This document shows, piece after piece, positions 44,172-52,006 of a DNA stretch of 64,000 nt. Position 1 is the stretch's first letter. Each line of letters starts with the position of its first letter. The position numbers and the translations under genes are program-made. The notes beneath the pieces were generated by a model. It had not been told where the DNA came from. It made no database searches and saw only the letters and a program-made list of their open reading frames with translations. The stretch lies in NCBI RefSeq assembly GCF_017114995.1, contig NZ_JABXKL010000019.1:186001-250000 (forward strand), written 5' to 3'. Source of the stretch: Nostoc sp. NMS9 (lineage in GTDB: Bacteria > Cyanobacteriota > Cyanobacteriia > Cyanobacteriales > Nostocaceae).

Positions 44172-47100
44172 TTAAGATTTTCGTTCATCTGTAATTCCCC
44201 AGATTAGTTGCTTCATGGGATCGGGTTCTGACTGGCGGAAATCAACCCACATCATGCCTTCTAGAAAAATTGGTAATTTTGGAGTTTGAACACAATCTGG
44301 AAGTAGTACAGGAATAACGGGACATCGTCGTCTAACAAATTCCCGCAAAAAAGCATCTAATTCTGCGTCTTGCCAGGGGCCAGTATTATTCTTTCCAATA
44401 AAGACAGCCGCAGCTTTTATATTCCTGATCTGTTCTTCCAATGCTCGTTGCCAGGGTAAACCGGGTCGGAGTTCCCATTCATCTAGCCAAGGCAAAATCC
44501 TAAATTCTTTAAGCTCTTGGCCAATGAGCTTGACATTTGGCTTATCATCGCTATTGTGGCAGAGAAATACGTCGAAGTCTTTTGTTGCAATTTTCCCTTG
44601 AACTGAAGAAGTCGCAGTTTCACGATTGCGTTGCAAGTTGGCAGTTTTATCCATTTCTGCAAGAGTGGATGCCTGTGTTTCTGTTATTTGCTCTGCCTGT
44701 TCTTGATCTATCAAAAAAATAGGAGTTTCACCACAAACGCTACAACCAATCCAGTCAAAACCACGTTCACGCCGCATCTGGATATGCTGTTCAGGAATTG
44801 TTGCACCACAATTATGGCAAGCAAGAGTGCGCCGCTGTTTGATACTTTCTGCTAACGCCCGTCGCTTCAAATGAATCAGGATGTAATCTTCAAATTGAGA
44901 GCGAGTTTGTTCATTTGCCGCTCTGTCAAAAAAGAGTGTTAATTCTCCCTTACCCTCTTGAACTTCCCGTAAGAACATACCGCATAATCCACCCACTTTT
45001 GCTTTGTAAGTTGCGGCATTTTTCCATAAGTCTTGTTTGATAAAAAATCCACTTCTTGTGAGCCTCACGGCTAAAGTTGCATAAATATTGAGAACTGCAC
45101 CTTCAAATTCAAAAATTACTGTTTGACCTTCTGGATTAGGTGCATCGGGCCATTCACGGGTAAATTGTGATGGAAATACCAAATACGCGACATCGTCCGC
45201 CGATTGGCGTAACACTAACTCGTGGTATAGTAACTCTTCAACCGTTGCAATTAGCAGTAGTTCTTCGAGCGCTTTATCCTTAATTCGCTCATCTTCTGAC
45301 ATCCGAAAACGCCCGTGTCGTGCATCTTCTTCAGCGATACTGCCTAAACCATCAGGTTCATCCTTAGCAGCATTAATTAGGGCAGAAGCGTAAGCATCTA
45401 GCAATTCGGGTTGCAGTAAAACATAATTTCCAAAAGAAATTCGTCGGATTAAGTCCCTCGACTCGACTCGTCCAATACAGATATCAAATTGGGAACGCAA
45501 CTTTTCTGTCTCGGTAGGAGCGTTTTCAGACTTTAGGAATGCACGATATAAGTCATCTACTGTAGATAACAATCGCTCGGCTTTTTTTTCTGCAATTAAG
45601 AAATCTTTGATTTGCTGGAAGAGTTTTGTTGAGCTGACGCTTGGCAAAGCTTTCCAATTAATAGCGTTGCGAATTGCATCGATTAGTTCTGGAATTTTCC
45701 ACCCCTCTCTGGCGCTAGTTTCAAAGTATCCATCAAAGCCTAATTCTTTTACCCATGTATCGATACGCTTTTGACTAACGCCGATACCACCGCGATCTGC
45801 ACGAGCAGCAACCAGAAATTTCTTTAATGAAGAAGTACTAGAAGACTGAAGCCGTTGTGCTTGAGTGAGCGCCCGATCCCAGTGACGCACTCCAGCGAAG
45901 GGATCAGTTTCACTACGAGTATCGAAGATAATGAGAGCAACAGCTACTTCGTTTAGGTGCAATTGATGAATCAAACGATAGCCTGGTTGCCCTGCCAGAT
46001 CCCATAGCATAGTTTCACGAGTCTTTGCTTGAGAACTTTCTACAATGCCTTGTTTATCGAACGTCCAAACTCGCCGTCCGTGAGTTGATTCCGTTGGCTG
46101 GAAGTGTTCGCCACTTAGCACTAAACCAAGTCCAGATTTTCCTACTCCGCTATCTCCTACTAAAACAACTTTGGCATTAGCATAATGAACCGAAGATGAA
46201 ACCGAAGGAACAGTCAATAAGGTAGGAAAGTCTAACTCCCAAATATGGATGATCGTGTCCTTTTCTCCAAGTGTGGCAAGAATAGGCAGCTTTGGATTGA
46301 AGGCAACGCTGGAGAGCCATTTAGCCGAAGTGGATTCATGGATAACTGCTATAGTTTCCCAAGTTTTGCAATTCCAGAGTCGAACAGAGTTATCCAGAGA
46401 TTTAGATACAAGAAATTTACCGTCGAAGGAAAAAGAAACATCAGTCACTGCATCTGCATGTCCTTCAAGAACCCTAGTTAGCGATCCAGTGGCAGTATCC
46501 CAGAGCATGATCGTACCATCAAGAATTGCTGATGCCAACACTTGACTATCCGGCGACCAGGCTATAGCAAGAAATTTGCTATTTTTTAAATTTATGGACT
46601 TGGAGGATGTTTGAGTTATGTAAGAAGCTACTAGCTGTAATTCATTTGTTTCGGCTAACTCGGCGTGCAACTCCCTTAACTCTGTCATTTGAACTTCTAT
46701 ACTTTCCTTGTTTTCAATCTCTTCGAGATTACTCAATATCTCGTTCCATTCTCGTTCTAATTGTTGCAGCTTTTCTAGCTGTTCTAGGTGCTTTTGGTGA
46801 GCAGCATGAATCTTGTAAAGACTAATGCTAGTTAGATTTTGATCTAATAAGGCTAGCATTTGCCCGCTTGAATCCCAAACAAGATTACCTAATCTTTTGT
46901 TTTCTAGTAATTCATCTAATAGCTCATCAAAAGATTGACGTTTATAATAATATGTTTTTGGAAATTTATTATTAATAATATTAATATCATTTCTAGAAAA
47001 AAACTGTAAGCTCTCATTACTATCAGAGTATATAACAAATGTTTCTTTATCAGGTCTATTGACCTTGTTGTCGCTAAAGAGATTCGCTATCTTTTTAGAA

Positions 47101-47735
47101 GTAAATTCTATTTTTCTAGAAAAACTTTTAAGTTTTTCCTCTATATCCTCTATTTTTTTTTCTGTTTGTGCATCCCAAAAATTAATTTTTGTAGGAAAAA
47201 TATTTTTTTTATTTATATATTTTTCTGTTTGTGCATCCAGCCACTCAAATTTTGCAGAAATTGTTTTAAGTTCTTTCTCCATTATTGTTTGTATTTGTGT
47301 ACCCCCCAAAACCTTAATTTCTTTATTATTATAGTAATCGCTATTTCTTGATGCAAACATTTTTCCAGATGGACACCATGCGATCGCATTACTGTTCTCA
47401 TTTTCAATTGCAGATCGTAGATCGCCTGTGTTGGTATTCCAAATCTTTATTGTGTCATCGCCAGAGACTGATGCTAAAACTTCTCCATCTGGCGACCATG
47501 CTATTCCAAATATAGTGTCTGTATGTCCTTCAAGTACGGACATAAGCTCTCCAGTTTCTGTATTCCAAAGCTGGATTGTATGGTCTTTGGAGGCTGAAGC
47601 AAGCTTTTTCCCATCTGCTGACCATGCAATTTGAGTGATGATGTCACTGTGTCCTTCCAGGGTATAGCGCAGCTTGAAACCTGAAGGTGGCGAGAGAACC
47701 GAATTTTCCTGCTCTGAACTTGCTACTTCAGACAT
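44172..47735 (-). CDS. WD40 / Ras-like GTPase / zinc ribbon / TIR protein
   Basis: 1187 aa. WD40 repeats at 20-110 (LEGHSDIITQIAWSADGKKL), interrupted by a Lys/Asn-rich insert and coiled coil (HLEQLEKLQQLEREWNEI, about 310-360), resuming at 385-500. Ras/Roc-like GTPase about 520-690: P-loop GDSGVGKSG, G3 WDLAGQPGY, G4-like AARADRG, G5 TSAREG. Then a helical/wHTH-like region. Zinc ribbon about 970-1000 (CHNCG...GCSVCGE). C-terminal TIR about 1050-1187 (DFDVFLCHNSDDKP, LDEWELRPGLPW). TIR domains of this type are often NADases. A GTPase-gated immune or cell-death effector is inferred. Confidence 0.9.
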   Translation of the reverse strand: MSEVASSEQENSVLSPPSGFKLRYTLEGHSDIITQIAWSADGKKLASASKDHTIQLWNTETGELMSVLEGHTDTIFGIAWSPDGEVLASVSGDDTIKIWNTNTGDLRSAIENENSNAIAWCPSGKMFASRNSDYYNNKEIKVLGGTQIQTIMEKELKTISAKFEWLDAQTEKYINKKNIFPTKINFWDAQTEKKIEDIEEKLKSFSRKIEFTSKKIANLFSDNKVNRPDKETFVIYSDSNESLQFFSRNDINIINNKFPKTYYYKRQSFDELLDELLENKRLGNLVWDSSGQMLALLDQNLTSISLYKIHAAHQKHLEQLEKLQQLEREWNEILSNLEEIENKESIEVQMTELRELHAELAETNELQLVASYITQTSSKSINLKNSKFLAIAWSPDSQVLASAILDGTIMLWDTATGSLTRVLEGHADAVTDVSFSFDGKFLVSKSLDNSVRLWNCKTWETIAVIHESTSAKWLSSVAFNPKLPILATLGEKDTIIHIWELDFPTLLTVPSVSSSVHYANAKVVLVGDSGVGKSGLGLVLSGEHFQPTESTHGRRVWTFDKQGIVESSQAKTRETMLWDLAGQPGYRLIHQLHLNEVAVALIIFDTRSETDPFAGVRHWDRALTQAQRLQSSSTSSLKKFLVAARADRGGIGVSQKRIDTWVKELGFDGYFETSAREGWKIPELIDAIRNAINWKALPSVSSTKLFQQIKDFLIAEKKAERLLSTVDDLYRAFLKSENAPTETEKLRSQFDICIGRVESRDLIRRISFGNYVLLQPELLDAYASALINAAKDEPDGLGSIAEEDARHGRFRMSEDERIKDKALEELLLIATVEELLYHELVLRQSADDVAYLVFPSQFTREWPDAPNPEGQTVIFEFEGAVLNIYATLAVRLTRSGFFIKQDLWKNAATYKAKVGGLCGMFLREVQEGKGELTLFFDRAANEQTRSQFEDYILIHLKRRALAESIKQRRTLACHNCGATIPEQHIQMRRERGFDWIGCSVCGETPIFLIDQEQAEQITETQASTLAEMDKTANLQRNRETATSSVQGKIATKDFDVFLCHNSDDKPNVKLIGQELKEFRILPWLDEWELRPGLPWQRALEEQIRNIKAAAVFIGKNNTGPWQDAELDAFLREFVRRRCPVIPVLLPDCVQTPKLPIFLEGMMWVDFRQSEPDPMKQLIWGITDERKS

Positions 47736-47882: not shown

Positions 47883-48176
47883 CTAAGGAAACCCATCATC
47901 TAATACTCCAACACGATGTTGAAGTACCTCAACACGACTTTGGAGTACCTCGACACGATGTTGAAGTACCTCAACACGACTTTGAAGTACCTCGACACGA
48001 TGTTGAAGTACCTCGACACGATGTTGAAGTACCTCAACACGATGTTGAAGTACCTCAACACGACTTTGAAGTACCTCAACACGATGTTGAAGTACCTCAA
48101 CACGACTTTGAAGTATATGTCGCTTATTTAAAGTAATTTTTTTGACAACCTGAATAAAAACTTCAGTACAATCCAC
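47883..48176 (-). CDS. doubtful ORF encoding heptad repeats VEVLQHR/VEVLQSR
   Basis: 97 codons. A non-repetitive start, MDCTEVFIQVVKKITLNKRH, then ten 7-residue units with V and L at coiled-coil a/d-type positions and an H/S alternation, then GVLDDGFP. The 21-bp unit keeps three frames open on both strands, so openness alone is no proof. The coiled-coil reading and the unique N-terminus make it possible but unproven. Confidence 0.3.
   Translation of the reverse strand: MDCTEVFIQVVKKITLNKRHILQSRVEVLQHRVEVLQSRVEVLQHRVEVLQHRVEVLQHRVEVLQSRVEVLQHRVEVLQSRVEVLQHRVGVLDDGFP
47904..48113. repeat. 21-bp tandem repeat, ten units
   Basis: Ten consecutive copies of TACCTCaACACGAtgTTGAAG. Two variants (GATGTTG = H, GACTTTG = S) follow the order H S H S H H H S H S. 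The unit length is three heptamers and seven codons. Confidence 0.92.
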
Positions 48177-48766: not shown

Positions 48767-49996
48767 CTATCCTGGCTTATGATCCAAACGAGTCGCTTGC
48801 TCTAGGGCGGCTTTTTCTTTGGCTCGGCGGACATAGGGTTGTAACTGAGTGCGATCGCAAGCTGTAAAAATACTCAGGTTTTCCAAGGTAATCCCCCGCA
48901 TTAACATTTCTACGCGCCAGGTTTGTTGTGCTTGGGCGATCGCTGGCGTTTGTCCTTGGGGAGTTAACAATCTCTCGCTCCATACTTGCCAACGTGTCTC
49001 AAGTTCTGATTCTGAAATAGGTGTGCCTGTATCATTTAGAAACATGGCTGTTTGAGCATCTTTACGACTTTTCAACCATTTGATTAAGGGATTATTAGTA
49101 AAGGAACCGTAGCGTTTGCCCAAAATCCATTGATTCAAAGGCACTTGACGGACAAATCCGGGAATTGTGATTTGCAGGAAGTGCCCTTGAGTATCGTAGA
49201 TTTGGTGCGATCGCTCCAAGCTAATTATTTCTGTGGCGGATAACCCAGACCCAAATAATACGTAAGCTAAGGCATAATCTCGTACTCCGAATTTCCTGGC
49301 TTGTTGCAGAATTTCGTGAACTAAAGTAGCTGGTAAATCAGCTATTTCTGTGGTGGTGAACCCTCCTTGTAAGGAGTTTATTGCTGATTCTGTTGAAGAT
49401 GACATGGCTCCATGTAAAAACAACTCCACCAAATTTTCCAGAAAATCATCCCGATCTTCCCAAAGTTCGTGAAATTCGCTGGTGAACTCAATTACTGCAT
49501 ATCCCAAAATCATCCCATTCAGCAAACTGGCTAATTTTTCTGCGGGTAAATAGGTATTTAGGTGTCCTTGCTGGATTACAGTAGCTAAATACTGAGCTAC
49601 ATAACGGTTTGCCTCTGTTACTCCCCTGCCTAGTGCGCGGCGATTTTCTGCCGGGAATTGGTCGGCTTCACCTACCACAGATCGGACGAACTCTGGTACT
49701 CGTTCTAATGCATGTAAGCTATCACTTGCATAATCTTTAAGAGCTTGGTAAACATTGCCGGGAGGTGTTGCCCGCCGTACCAGCGATTCACCTAAATCCT
49801 TGAAGGCTGCGGACTCTTCCAGCACAGCCAAAAGCAGTCCATGTTTATTGCCAAAATTCCGAAATAGAGTCACTTCGTTGACTTCGGCTTTTTCAGCAAT
49901 TTGGCGGGTTGTGGTAGCGCTAACACCCTGAGCAGAAAACAACTCAAGTGCAGCTTGAATCAGGCGTTGACGAGTGGAAATGAGTTGAGATGACAT
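48767..49996 (-). CDS. TetR regulator fused to a degenerate tyrosine-recombinase-like domain
   Basis: 409 aa from ATG 49996 (the track start at 50008 is TTG). Residues 5-60 are a TetR helix-turn-helix (TRQRLIQAALELFSAQGVSA, TTRQIAEKAEVNEVTLFRNF), followed by a ligand-type helical domain to about 200. From about 230 to 400 the sequence follows the XerC/D catalytic fold: RDYALAYVLFGSGLSATEII aligns with RDxAxxxxLxxTGLRxSEL, then VRQVPLN, and a C-terminal helix series. The catalytic Arg, His-x-x-Arg and Tyr are missing, so it should be inactive. Divergent from a desaturase gene, with palindromes at its own promoter. Confidence 0.8.
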   Translation of the reverse strand: MSSQLISTRQRLIQAALELFSAQGVSATTTRQIAEKAEVNEVTLFRNFGNKHGLLLAVLEESAAFKDLGESLVRRATPPGNVYQALKDYASDSLHALERVPEFVRSVVGEADQFPAENRRALGRGVTEANRYVAQYLATVIQQGHLNTYLPAEKLASLLNGMILGYAVIEFTSEFHELWEDRDDFLENLVELFLHGAMSSSTESAINSLQGGFTTTEIADLPATLVHEILQQARKFGVRDYALAYVLFGSGLSATEIISLERSHQIYDTQGHFLQITIPGFVRQVPLNQWILGKRYGSFTNNPLIKWLKSRKDAQTAMFLNDTGTPISESELETRWQVWSERLLTPQGQTPAIAQAQQTWRVEMLMRGITLENLSIFTACDRTQLQPYVRRAKEKAALEQATRLDHKPG

Positions 49997-50004
49997 AGAA
50001 AAAT

Positions 50005-50067
50005 GCAAGTGGCACTTGCAGGAAGTATCAGAGTTCTGCTAGCATAACAAATGTAAGTGATACTTGC
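50005..50067. promoter_or_regulatory. paired palindromes, candidate TetR operators
   Basis: GCAAGTGGCACTTGC (50005-50019) is a perfect 15-bp palindrome 9 bp from the TetR start. GTAAGTGATACTTGC (50053-50067) is a close second copy 33 bp further on, toward the desaturase gene. Consensus GYAAGTGnnACTTGC. Position between divergent genes suits autoregulation and control of the desaturase. Confidence 0.65.
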
Positions 50068-50169
50068 TTTACTCTACTGTAACGAACTAGTATACAGGGC
50101 GGGTAAATCTCTGTGGGATTATGCCCAAGAAAAAGCAAATCGCTTTCTCATCCATCAACAGGAATTTTT

Positions 50170-51051
50170 ATGACCGCAAATTTTGGGGCGTTCGCTAAAA
50201 GCGTTGGCGAAGCCATCGCCCCTGAGAGAGGCAACTCACCTCGACTCAGTTGGACAAATGTAGTATTTTTTACTACATTTCATGCTTTAGCACTTCTGGC
50301 TCCTTGGTTTTTCTCCTGGCCAGCATTAGGTTTGCTAGTGTTTCTCCACTGGTTATTCGGGAGCATTGGTATTTGCCTGGGATATCACCGACTACTAAGC
50401 CATAAAAGTTTCCAGGTTCCTAAGTGGTTAGAGTATGCGATCGCCCTGATCGGAGCGCTGGCTTTGCAAGGAGGGCCAATTTTTTGGGTAGGTGGACACC
50501 GCCAACATCACGCCCACACAGAAGATATCAATTTAGACCCCTATTCTGCTCAAAGAGGATTTTGGTGGAGCCATATATTGTGGATTTTCTACCCACGTCC
50601 AGAATTTTTTGACTATGACACCTATAAAAAATATGCTCCTGACTTAGCCAGACAACCCTTTTATTGTTGGCTAGATCGCTACTTCTTGCTATTGCAAATA
50701 CCCTTCGGGCTGCTGCTTTATGCTCTAGGAGGATGGTCTTTTGTATTCTACGGAGTGTTTCTCAGATGTGTCTTGCTTTGGCATTCAACCTGGTTTGTGA
50801 ACTCAGCATCACACCTATGGGGTTATCGCACCTTTGATGCTAATGATGGCGCTCGTAATCTTTGGTGGGTATCCCTCGTCACTTATGGAGAAGGATGGCA
50901 CAACAACCATCATACTTATCCCCACATGGCGAAATCTGGGTTGTCTTGGTGGGAAATTGATGTTACTTGGTGGAGCATCTTAGTGTTGCAGACTTTGGGT
51001 TTAGCTAAAAAGGTTGTCTCGCGTCCTCCTCAAGGTGCAACTCACGGCTAA
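50170..51051 (+). CDS. acyl-lipid fatty-acid desaturase (delta-9, DesC-like)
   Basis: 293 aa from ATG 50170, which has AGGA seven bases upstream; the track GTG at 50113 adds 19 unlikely residues. Membrane di-iron desaturase with three His boxes: HRLLSH (H73-H78), HRQHH and HNNHH. Hydrophobic spans VVFFTTFHALALLAPWFFSW and LGLLVFLHWLFGSIGICLGY, and a later pair. Inserts a double bond in membrane lipid acyl chains using ferredoxin electrons. Near the N-terminus, FAKSVGEAIAPERGN is encoded by an interspersed-repeat-like sequence. Confidence 0.92.
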   Translation: MTANFGAFAKSVGEAIAPERGNSPRLSWTNVVFFTTFHALALLAPWFFSWPALGLLVFLHWLFGSIGICLGYHRLLSHKSFQVPKWLEYAIALIGALALQGGPIFWVGGHRQHHAHTEDINLDPYSAQRGFWWSHILWIFYPRPEFFDYDTYKKYAPDLARQPFYCWLDRYFLLLQIPFGLLLYALGGWSFVFYGVFLRCVLLWHSTWFVNSASHLWGYRTFDANDGARNLWWVSLVTYGEGWHNNHHTYPHMAKSGLSWWEIDVTWWSILVLQTLGLAKKVVSRPPQGATHG

Positions 51052-51172: not shown

Positions 51173-52006
51173 GTGAAAACTGACAGCATTTTTTATCGCC
51201 TTTTTCAAGAATTTCCTGGGATCTTTTTTGAATTAATTGGCAATCCACCCCAAACGGCAGAGACTTATAAATTCTCCTCAATTGAAATCAAGCAAACTGC
51301 ATTCCGTATAGATGGTGTTTTTATCCCAACACAAGGAGAAGAAAATCCGATTTACTTTGTTGAAGTCCAGTTTCAAACTGACACAGAAATTTATTCACGC
51401 TTATTTTCAGAAATTTTTTTATACTTACGCCAAAATAAACCTCAAAATTCTTGGCGAGGAGTAGTTATCTATCCCAATCGCAGTTTAGATACAGCAGATA
51501 TCAAGAATTACAGTGAATTTTTCACTAGCCAGCGCATCAGTCGCATCTACCTTAATGAATTAGGTGAAACTGCATCATTGCCAGTTGGAATTGCTACGAT
51601 GAAATTAGTCGTCGATGAAGAGGAGACAGCAATTATAGCTGCTAGACAGTTAATAGACAGAACCCAGCAAGAAATCAACATCGAACCACAACGGCGGCAG
51701 TTACTAGAATTGATAGAGACAATATTAGTTTACAAGTTTCCGACGATGAGTCGAGAGGAGATTGAAGGTATGTTTGGGTTAAGTGATTTGAAACAAACAC
51801 GAGTTTATCAAGAAGGTAAACAAGAAGGCAAACAAGAAGGCAAGCAAGAAGGCAAGCAAGAAGGAGCGCGTGAACAAAAGTTTAGAATGATACCTTTGTT
51901 GTTGAGATTGGGATTGAGTTTTGAAGAAACTGCGAAAGAGTTAGGTTTGAGTCTAGAAGAGATTCAGCAAGAAATACAAAAACAGCCTCCAAGTCAGGAT
52001 ACGTAA
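51173..52006 (+). CDS. DUF2887 (Rpn/PD-(D/E)XK-type) protein, second locus
   Basis: 277 aa, GTG start. Homologous along its N-terminal 200 residues to the 20821 gene: FYRLFQEFPGIFFELIGNPP, RIDGVFIP (Asp), YFVEVQFQ (E..Q), RISRIYLNELG. Then a 12-bp DNA repeat encodes (GKQE)4, and a different C-terminal helix pair replaces DUF4351 (LRLGLSFEETAKELGLSLEE), resembling the DUF2887/Rpn tail that follows such linkers. Intact, single copy here. Possibly nuclease-like; role unknown. Confidence 0.82.
   Translation: MKTDSIFYRLFQEFPGIFFELIGNPPQTAETYKFSSIEIKQTAFRIDGVFIPTQGEENPIYFVEVQFQTDTEIYSRLFSEIFLYLRQNKPQNSWRGVVIYPNRSLDTADIKNYSEFFTSQRISRIYLNELGETASLPVGIATMKLVVDEEETAIIAARQLIDRTQQEINIEPQRRQLLELIETILVYKFPTMSREEIEGMFGLSDLKQTRVYQEGKQEGKQEGKQEGKQEGAREQKFRMIPLLLRLGLSFEETAKELGLSLEEIQQEIQKQPPSQDT

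Follow-up and report, generated by a model that had tools for sequence, protein, structure and literature searches.

A TetR-family regulator fused to a tyrosine-recombinase-like domain with a dismantled active site, paired with a fatty-acid desaturase gene in cyanobacteria

Introduction

What is a tyrosine-recombinase-like domain doing at the end of a TetR-family transcription regulator, and does that regulator need it? The question is raised by a gene of Nostoc sp. NMS9 lying next to a fatty-acid desaturase gene in the window examined here, a 64,000-nucleotide stretch of an 8.09-Mb genome. Cyanobacteria adjust their membranes to cold and light, and control of desaturase genes has a central part in this. 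A preliminary description, made from the sequence of the window, had read the gene as a TetR repressor joined to a dead recombinase core, and proposed that a co-opted fold of this kind would be unusual in a TetR protein, whether it served in DNA binding or in sensing.

Domain architecture of the fusion

The regulator is encoded on the reverse strand (Table 1), stop codons being present throughout the forward strand of the same interval. Two features of TetR membership were detected, namely an HTH matching TetR_N (PF00440) at residues 12–58 (E 1.4e-14, above the Pfam cut-off) and a C-terminal helical ligand/dimer domain matching TetR_C_7 (PF14246) at residues 100–194 (24.6 bits against a cut-off of 22). 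The full-length AlphaFold2 model had a pLDDT of 73.7, with mostly 73–94 in the C-terminal domain and modest values of about 53–80 in the ligand half. Foldseek comparison placed the TetR half nearest to the PDB folds of Thermus and Bacillus FadR with acyl-CoA, the best match with the full-length model being Thermus FadR with lauroyl-CoA (3anp, E 6e-6); EthR was also matched.

Taken singly, the protein matched Phage_integrase over residues 226–342 below the Pfam cut-off (E 8e-4) and an XerC model at E 1e-4. Inclusion of homologues took the recombinase match beyond chance, PF00589 (Phage_integrase) being found in 38 of 43 homologous C-terminal domains with a best E of 1.8e-9, and a profile of the domain matched the archaeal Xer structure 4a8e (E 9e-5). 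When the domain was modelled alone (pLDDT 83.8, pTM 0.80), its best PDB match in Foldseek was XerA (5hxy, E 8.6e-7, TM 0.67–0.71) and all of the 50 matches listed were tyrosine recombinases, while the corresponding part of the full-length model retrieved XerA and the Tn1549 integrase. By computation, therefore, the C-terminal half is predicted to have the tyrosine-recombinase catalytic-domain fold. The N-terminal core-binding (clamp) domain of these enzymes is absent, and the linker and TetR half occupy its place. The fusion first read by eye was thus recovered in both halves by Pfam and Foldseek, and the structure prediction of the C-terminal domain, with XerA as best match, upheld its recombinase fold.

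Table 1 Coordinates of the regulator, the desaturase gene and the predicted elements between them
Feature	Position in window	Strand	Remarks
TetR/recombinase-like fusion regulator	48767..49996	-	409 aa; ATG at 49996, stop 48767-48769; coding 48770-49996
Tyrosine-recombinase-like catalytic-fold domain	48770..49342	-	residues 219-409 (C-terminal ~190)
Variable linker	49343..49405	-	residues 198-218; dN/dS 0.67; pLDDT about 30-55
TetR part	49406..49996	-	HTH, residues 1-60; ligand-type helical domain, 61-197
Predicted operator O1	50004..50020		TGCAAGTGGCACTTGCA; in 5' leader of regulator gene
Possible -10 of regulator gene	50041..50046	-	TATGCT; within TAACA/TAGCA element; putative promoter role, from sequence
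Predicted operator O2	50052..50068		TGTAAGTGATACTTGCT; 48 bp from O1; overlaps presumed promoters of both genes
Possible -10 of desaturase gene	50075..50080	+	TACTGT; putative promoter role, from sequence
Fatty-acid desaturase	50170..51051	+	delta-9, DesC1/DesC2-type His boxes; PF00487 E 1.7e-19; presumed target

Distribution and selection

Close homologues were found to keep the fusion. Of 386 cyanobacterial genomes drawn from across the phylum, 41 had it, each in a single copy. Relatives within Nostoc generally carry it, and about a hundred intact orthologues were recovered in many families. The dN/dS ratio was 0.06 in the HTH, 0.03 in the ligand part and 0.14 in the recombinase-like part, with the linker at 0.67. 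The recombinase-like domain is maintained by purifying selection and its conservation exceeds what a purely ornamental part would show, yet one lineage has dropped it and kept everything else intact; conservation and selection together support the reading of the fold as co-opted.

No homologue was found in which the two parts are separate and unrelated: TetR-only homologues share the gene context of the fusion (see below), and a free-standing C-terminal domain was not found in the 386 cyanobacterial genomes. Four weak matches to the domain in these genomes, within frames of 291–300 aa, were set aside as probably ordinary Xer recombinases. A search of plasmids returned only the fusion of Gloeothece citriformis and none free-standing. 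In a peptide-pattern scan beyond cyanobacteria, which reaches close relatives only, every locus kept was cyanobacterial. We found no description of the fusion, of the gene pair or of the Anabaena 7120 locus in the open-access literature, and the Gloeothece plasmid relative is annotated merely as TetR/AcrR, so that the recombinase-like domain seems to have gone unremarked. With the two halves kept together in many cyanobacteria, the TetR-recombinase fusion is a real protein, apparently undescribed, and its unusual character among TetR proteins was correctly anticipated.

Residues of the former active site

Alignment to the reference 4a8e placed S253 at the Arg-I position, A354 at His-II, Q357 at Arg-II, C380 at H/W-III and Y388 at the catalytic Tyr. 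Among 78 relatives, all sharing less than 95% identity, Arg-I was kept in one, His-II in none and Arg-II in eight, with Gln at the Arg-II position in most; the H/W position was Trp in 16. At the position equivalent to the nucleophile the residue was readable in 77 relatives and was Tyr (Tyr388 here) in 75, with one H and one F as the exceptions. The preliminary description had listed Arg, the HxxR motif and Tyr as lacking, and was right about the first two, which are gone (S253, A354, Q357), and mistaken about the Tyr, which is present. Because Arg-I, His-II and usually Arg-II have been lost, recombination is not expected, and judged from these residues it is very unlikely that the fusion protein carries it out; the loss of catalysis suspected earlier accordingly holds. 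Tyr388 probably has a structural role. Also conserved around the old active site are Q355, T359, W360 and R391, and a family-specific motif, RQVPxNQWIxGxRYGSYxxNPLxxWLxxRKD, is highly conserved. One relative (G048, L112:6286-7533, reverse strand) reads ATGLRPQEV and may retain Arg-I, apparently the sole case among the 78.

The desaturase partner and predicted operators

The same desaturase gene is adjacent and divergent to the regulator in all 103 loci, linkage to a fatty-acid desaturase or lipid gene being a trait of DesT/FadR-like acyl-responsive regulators. Its His boxes, read from the sequence as HRLLSHKSF, GHRQHH, HSTWFVNSASH and GEGWHNNHH, fit the DesC1/DesC2 type (PMC4390868). The pair, together with both of the palindromes described below, is also present on plasmid pP742403 of Gloeothece citriformis. 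That plasmid is mobilizable, and the pair (L194, 2395-6573) stands there beside a gene for an orange-carotenoid-protein N-domain and a light-harvesting-like gene of the ssl1498 family.

A pattern search located two 17-bp palindromes, TGCAAGTNNNACTTGCA, between regulator and desaturase in 97 of 103 loci, at a spacing of 46–48 bp in 91 of the 103. The TAACA/TAGCA element between O2 and O1 was conserved in 34 of 37 dereplicated loci, and ACAGT, the opposite strand of the possible desaturase -10, occurred in 19 of the 37 versus about one in shuffles. Beyond these promoter-like elements the flanks of O1 and O2 held no further broadly conserved block. Desaturase copies without a TetR neighbour had no intergenic palindromes in the 18 inspected, and one weak match lay inside a gene. 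Pattern searches across ten genomes showed the perfect palindrome to be restricted to the regulator-desaturase locus in nine, the tenth having a one-mismatch site there. No regulon beyond the locus was found in the ten genomes, single-mismatch sites elsewhere being few and without a consistent second target across genera. A one-mismatch palindrome, TGCTAGTTCTACTTGCA, recurs at a different locus in three Nostoc genomes (G007, G000 and G118).

Relatives lacking the recombinase-like domain

TetR-only relatives were sought among relatives of the desaturase without a neighbouring fusion. Two of these (G066 and G224) had a divergent TetR gene lacking the recombinase-like domain, with the palindrome kept. 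G066 encodes, on a single contig, a 236-aa TetR-only protein of 62% identity. Both palindromes are present there at a distance of 47 bp, and downstream of the gene nothing was left of the C-terminal domain. The tree nests G066 among the fusions, which indicates domain loss. G224 belongs to a family, f38, that sits on a long branch of the tree and has the TetR-only gene beside the desaturase in seven genomes (G224 and six others), an eighth being broken at that point. Members of f38 mostly have one good palindrome, and G431 has two, 49 bp apart. Four other candidates (G466, G453, G454 and G441) were rejected as contig-end cuts or as having the C-terminal domain in a broken frame.

The TetR-only relatives keep the same palindromes, the spacing (47–49 bp in G066 and G431) and the TAACA/TAGCA element, so no feature of the operator goes with the recombinase-like domain. 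Since they also keep the desaturase, recognition of the operator should need no more than the TetR part; on this comparison of sequences the TetR half should specify the operator and the recombinase-like domain should be accessory. The same evidence does not support an additional sequence-specific DNA-binding domain as the likelier role; extra DNA binding was one of the two roles named in the preliminary description. G066 is a natural deletion variant, which reveals what the extra domain is not required for.

Proposed regulation and comparison with known systems

We consider it likely that the protein is a one-component, autoregulated, acyl-responsive local regulator of a membrane-lipid delta-9 desaturase, equipped with a domesticated recombinase as accessory domain. 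Its TetR half would bind as a dimer to the predicted operators O1 and O2, which lie in the intergenic region that the regulator gene shares with the desaturase gene. As O2 overlaps both presumed promoters, repression of both genes by the bound regulator would be the simplest outcome; it is probably a repressor, with activation as the alternative. By analogy with FadR, DesT and MadR, the helical pocket may be occupied by a fatty-acyl ligand, either acyl-CoA or acyl-ACP, which would tune DNA binding to how saturated the lipid pool is. We infer acyl sensing by the TetR half from the fold similarity of its model and from the desaturase as its neighbour; ligand pockets in the TetR family, however, change quickly in evolution. 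The recombinase-like domain would most likely tune the TetR half through protein-protein contacts, from dimer to dimer or with a different factor, or through DNA contacts that lack sequence specificity, while being dispensable for specifying the operator.

DesT of Pseudomonas aeruginosa and MadR of mycobacteria are TetR-family desaturase regulators that respond to acyl-CoA (PMC8872791), and by analogy the predicted use of the fusion would be the same, desaturase control with an acyl response. The FadR proteins of Thermus thermophilus and Bacillus subtilis, also of the TetR family, are the PDB structures closest in fold to the TetR half and were solved with acyl-CoA, but these fatty-acid regulators are about 200 aa long, have nothing fused to the C terminus and share only about 20% identity. 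We know of no recombinase-like domain described for DesT or MadR. With XerA, XerC and XerD (PF00589) the fusion shares the predicted catalytic-domain fold and the position of the Tyr; it differs in the loss of Arg-I, His-II and usually Arg-II, in lacking the N-terminal clamp domain and in being joined to TetR. The nearest conceptual precedent is that of the DUF3504 proteins (KCTD1, ZMYM2-4, QRICH1, WOC), domesticated Crypton recombinases of animals, many of which are transcription regulators containing a dead tyrosine-recombinase domain (PMC3212892). Those proteins are eukaryotic, derived from transposons and have lost the Tyr, whereas the fusion is bacterial, keeps it and has a one-component TetR regulator as partner. 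The fusion offers a parallel in bacteria to those animal transcription factors that incorporate dead recombinases, and points to a conserved local desaturase regulator with predicted operators that can be tested. We are evenly divided on a further proposal, that this is a bacterial case of recombinase domestication: cyanobacteria would long ago have taken up a catalysis-stripped tyrosine-recombinase domain as a working second part of a transcription factor responsive to lipids, in which it bridges DNA-bound dimers or provides a second input.

Alternative roles of the extra domain

Two accounts of the fusion can be set aside. If the fusion were an artefact of assembly or annotation, or a chance read-through in decay, the sub-threshold Phage_integrase match of the single protein would be understandable, but this account is refuted by the intact orthologues, the low dN/dS of the domain and the annotated plasmid copy, and we give it virtually no weight. 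Hardly more credible is a recombinase still active, or under regulation, for which the palindromes would be sites of DNA inversion or cleavage; the retention of Tyr388 speaks for it, against which stand the tallies of Arg-I, His-II and Arg-II, the absent clamp domain and an intergenic arrangement that does not vary between loci and shows no trace of inversion.

The remaining readings concern what a presumably inactive domain might contribute. Our tentative preference is for a second input: the domain would sense or bind a further ligand or protein, with acyl carrier protein, enzymes of lipid metabolism and stress-related partners as examples. The conserved family motif and the residues kept around the old active site are consistent with this, as are the dead Crypton domains of animal transcription regulators, for which protein contact is one proposed role (PMC3212892). 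A role as second DNA-binding unit, clamping the palindrome flanks or bridging the dimers on O1 and O2 through the old DNA-binding face and subunit contacts, ranks next and seems rather unlikely. In its favour, the catalytic domains of recombinases contact DNA and assemble into cyclic complexes, the two palindromes are held at a near-constant distance, and the domain is slightly basic (22 K+R versus 19 D+E). However, its net charge is nearly neutral, the operator flanks offer no additional broadly conserved block, and 47 bp corresponds to about 4.5 turns, which would put the sites on opposite faces of the helix. Moreover, G066 and G431 keep two palindromes and the intervening element in the absence of the domain, so neither spacing nor element depends on it. 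A second-input or protein-contact role is hence favoured over DNA clamping or bridging, and what probability remains is undecided or belongs to minor readings.

Other features of the window

Adjoining the desaturase gene is a gene for a DUF2887 protein (51173-52006, forward strand; E 4e-87), found in this position in many Nostoc and absent or displaced in others. On the other side of the regulator, a 1187-aa protein encoded at 44172-47735 (reverse strand) combines Pfam WD40, Roc GTPase (residues 522–626) and TIR_2 (1056–1178) domains with weak PADLOC matches, and may have a signalling or defence role. Between this gene and the regulator, a 21-bp unit is repeated in tandem in 9.9 copies (47909-48115), encoding a coiled-coil-like VEVLQ(S/H)R repeat within an ORF at 47883-48176 (reverse strand).
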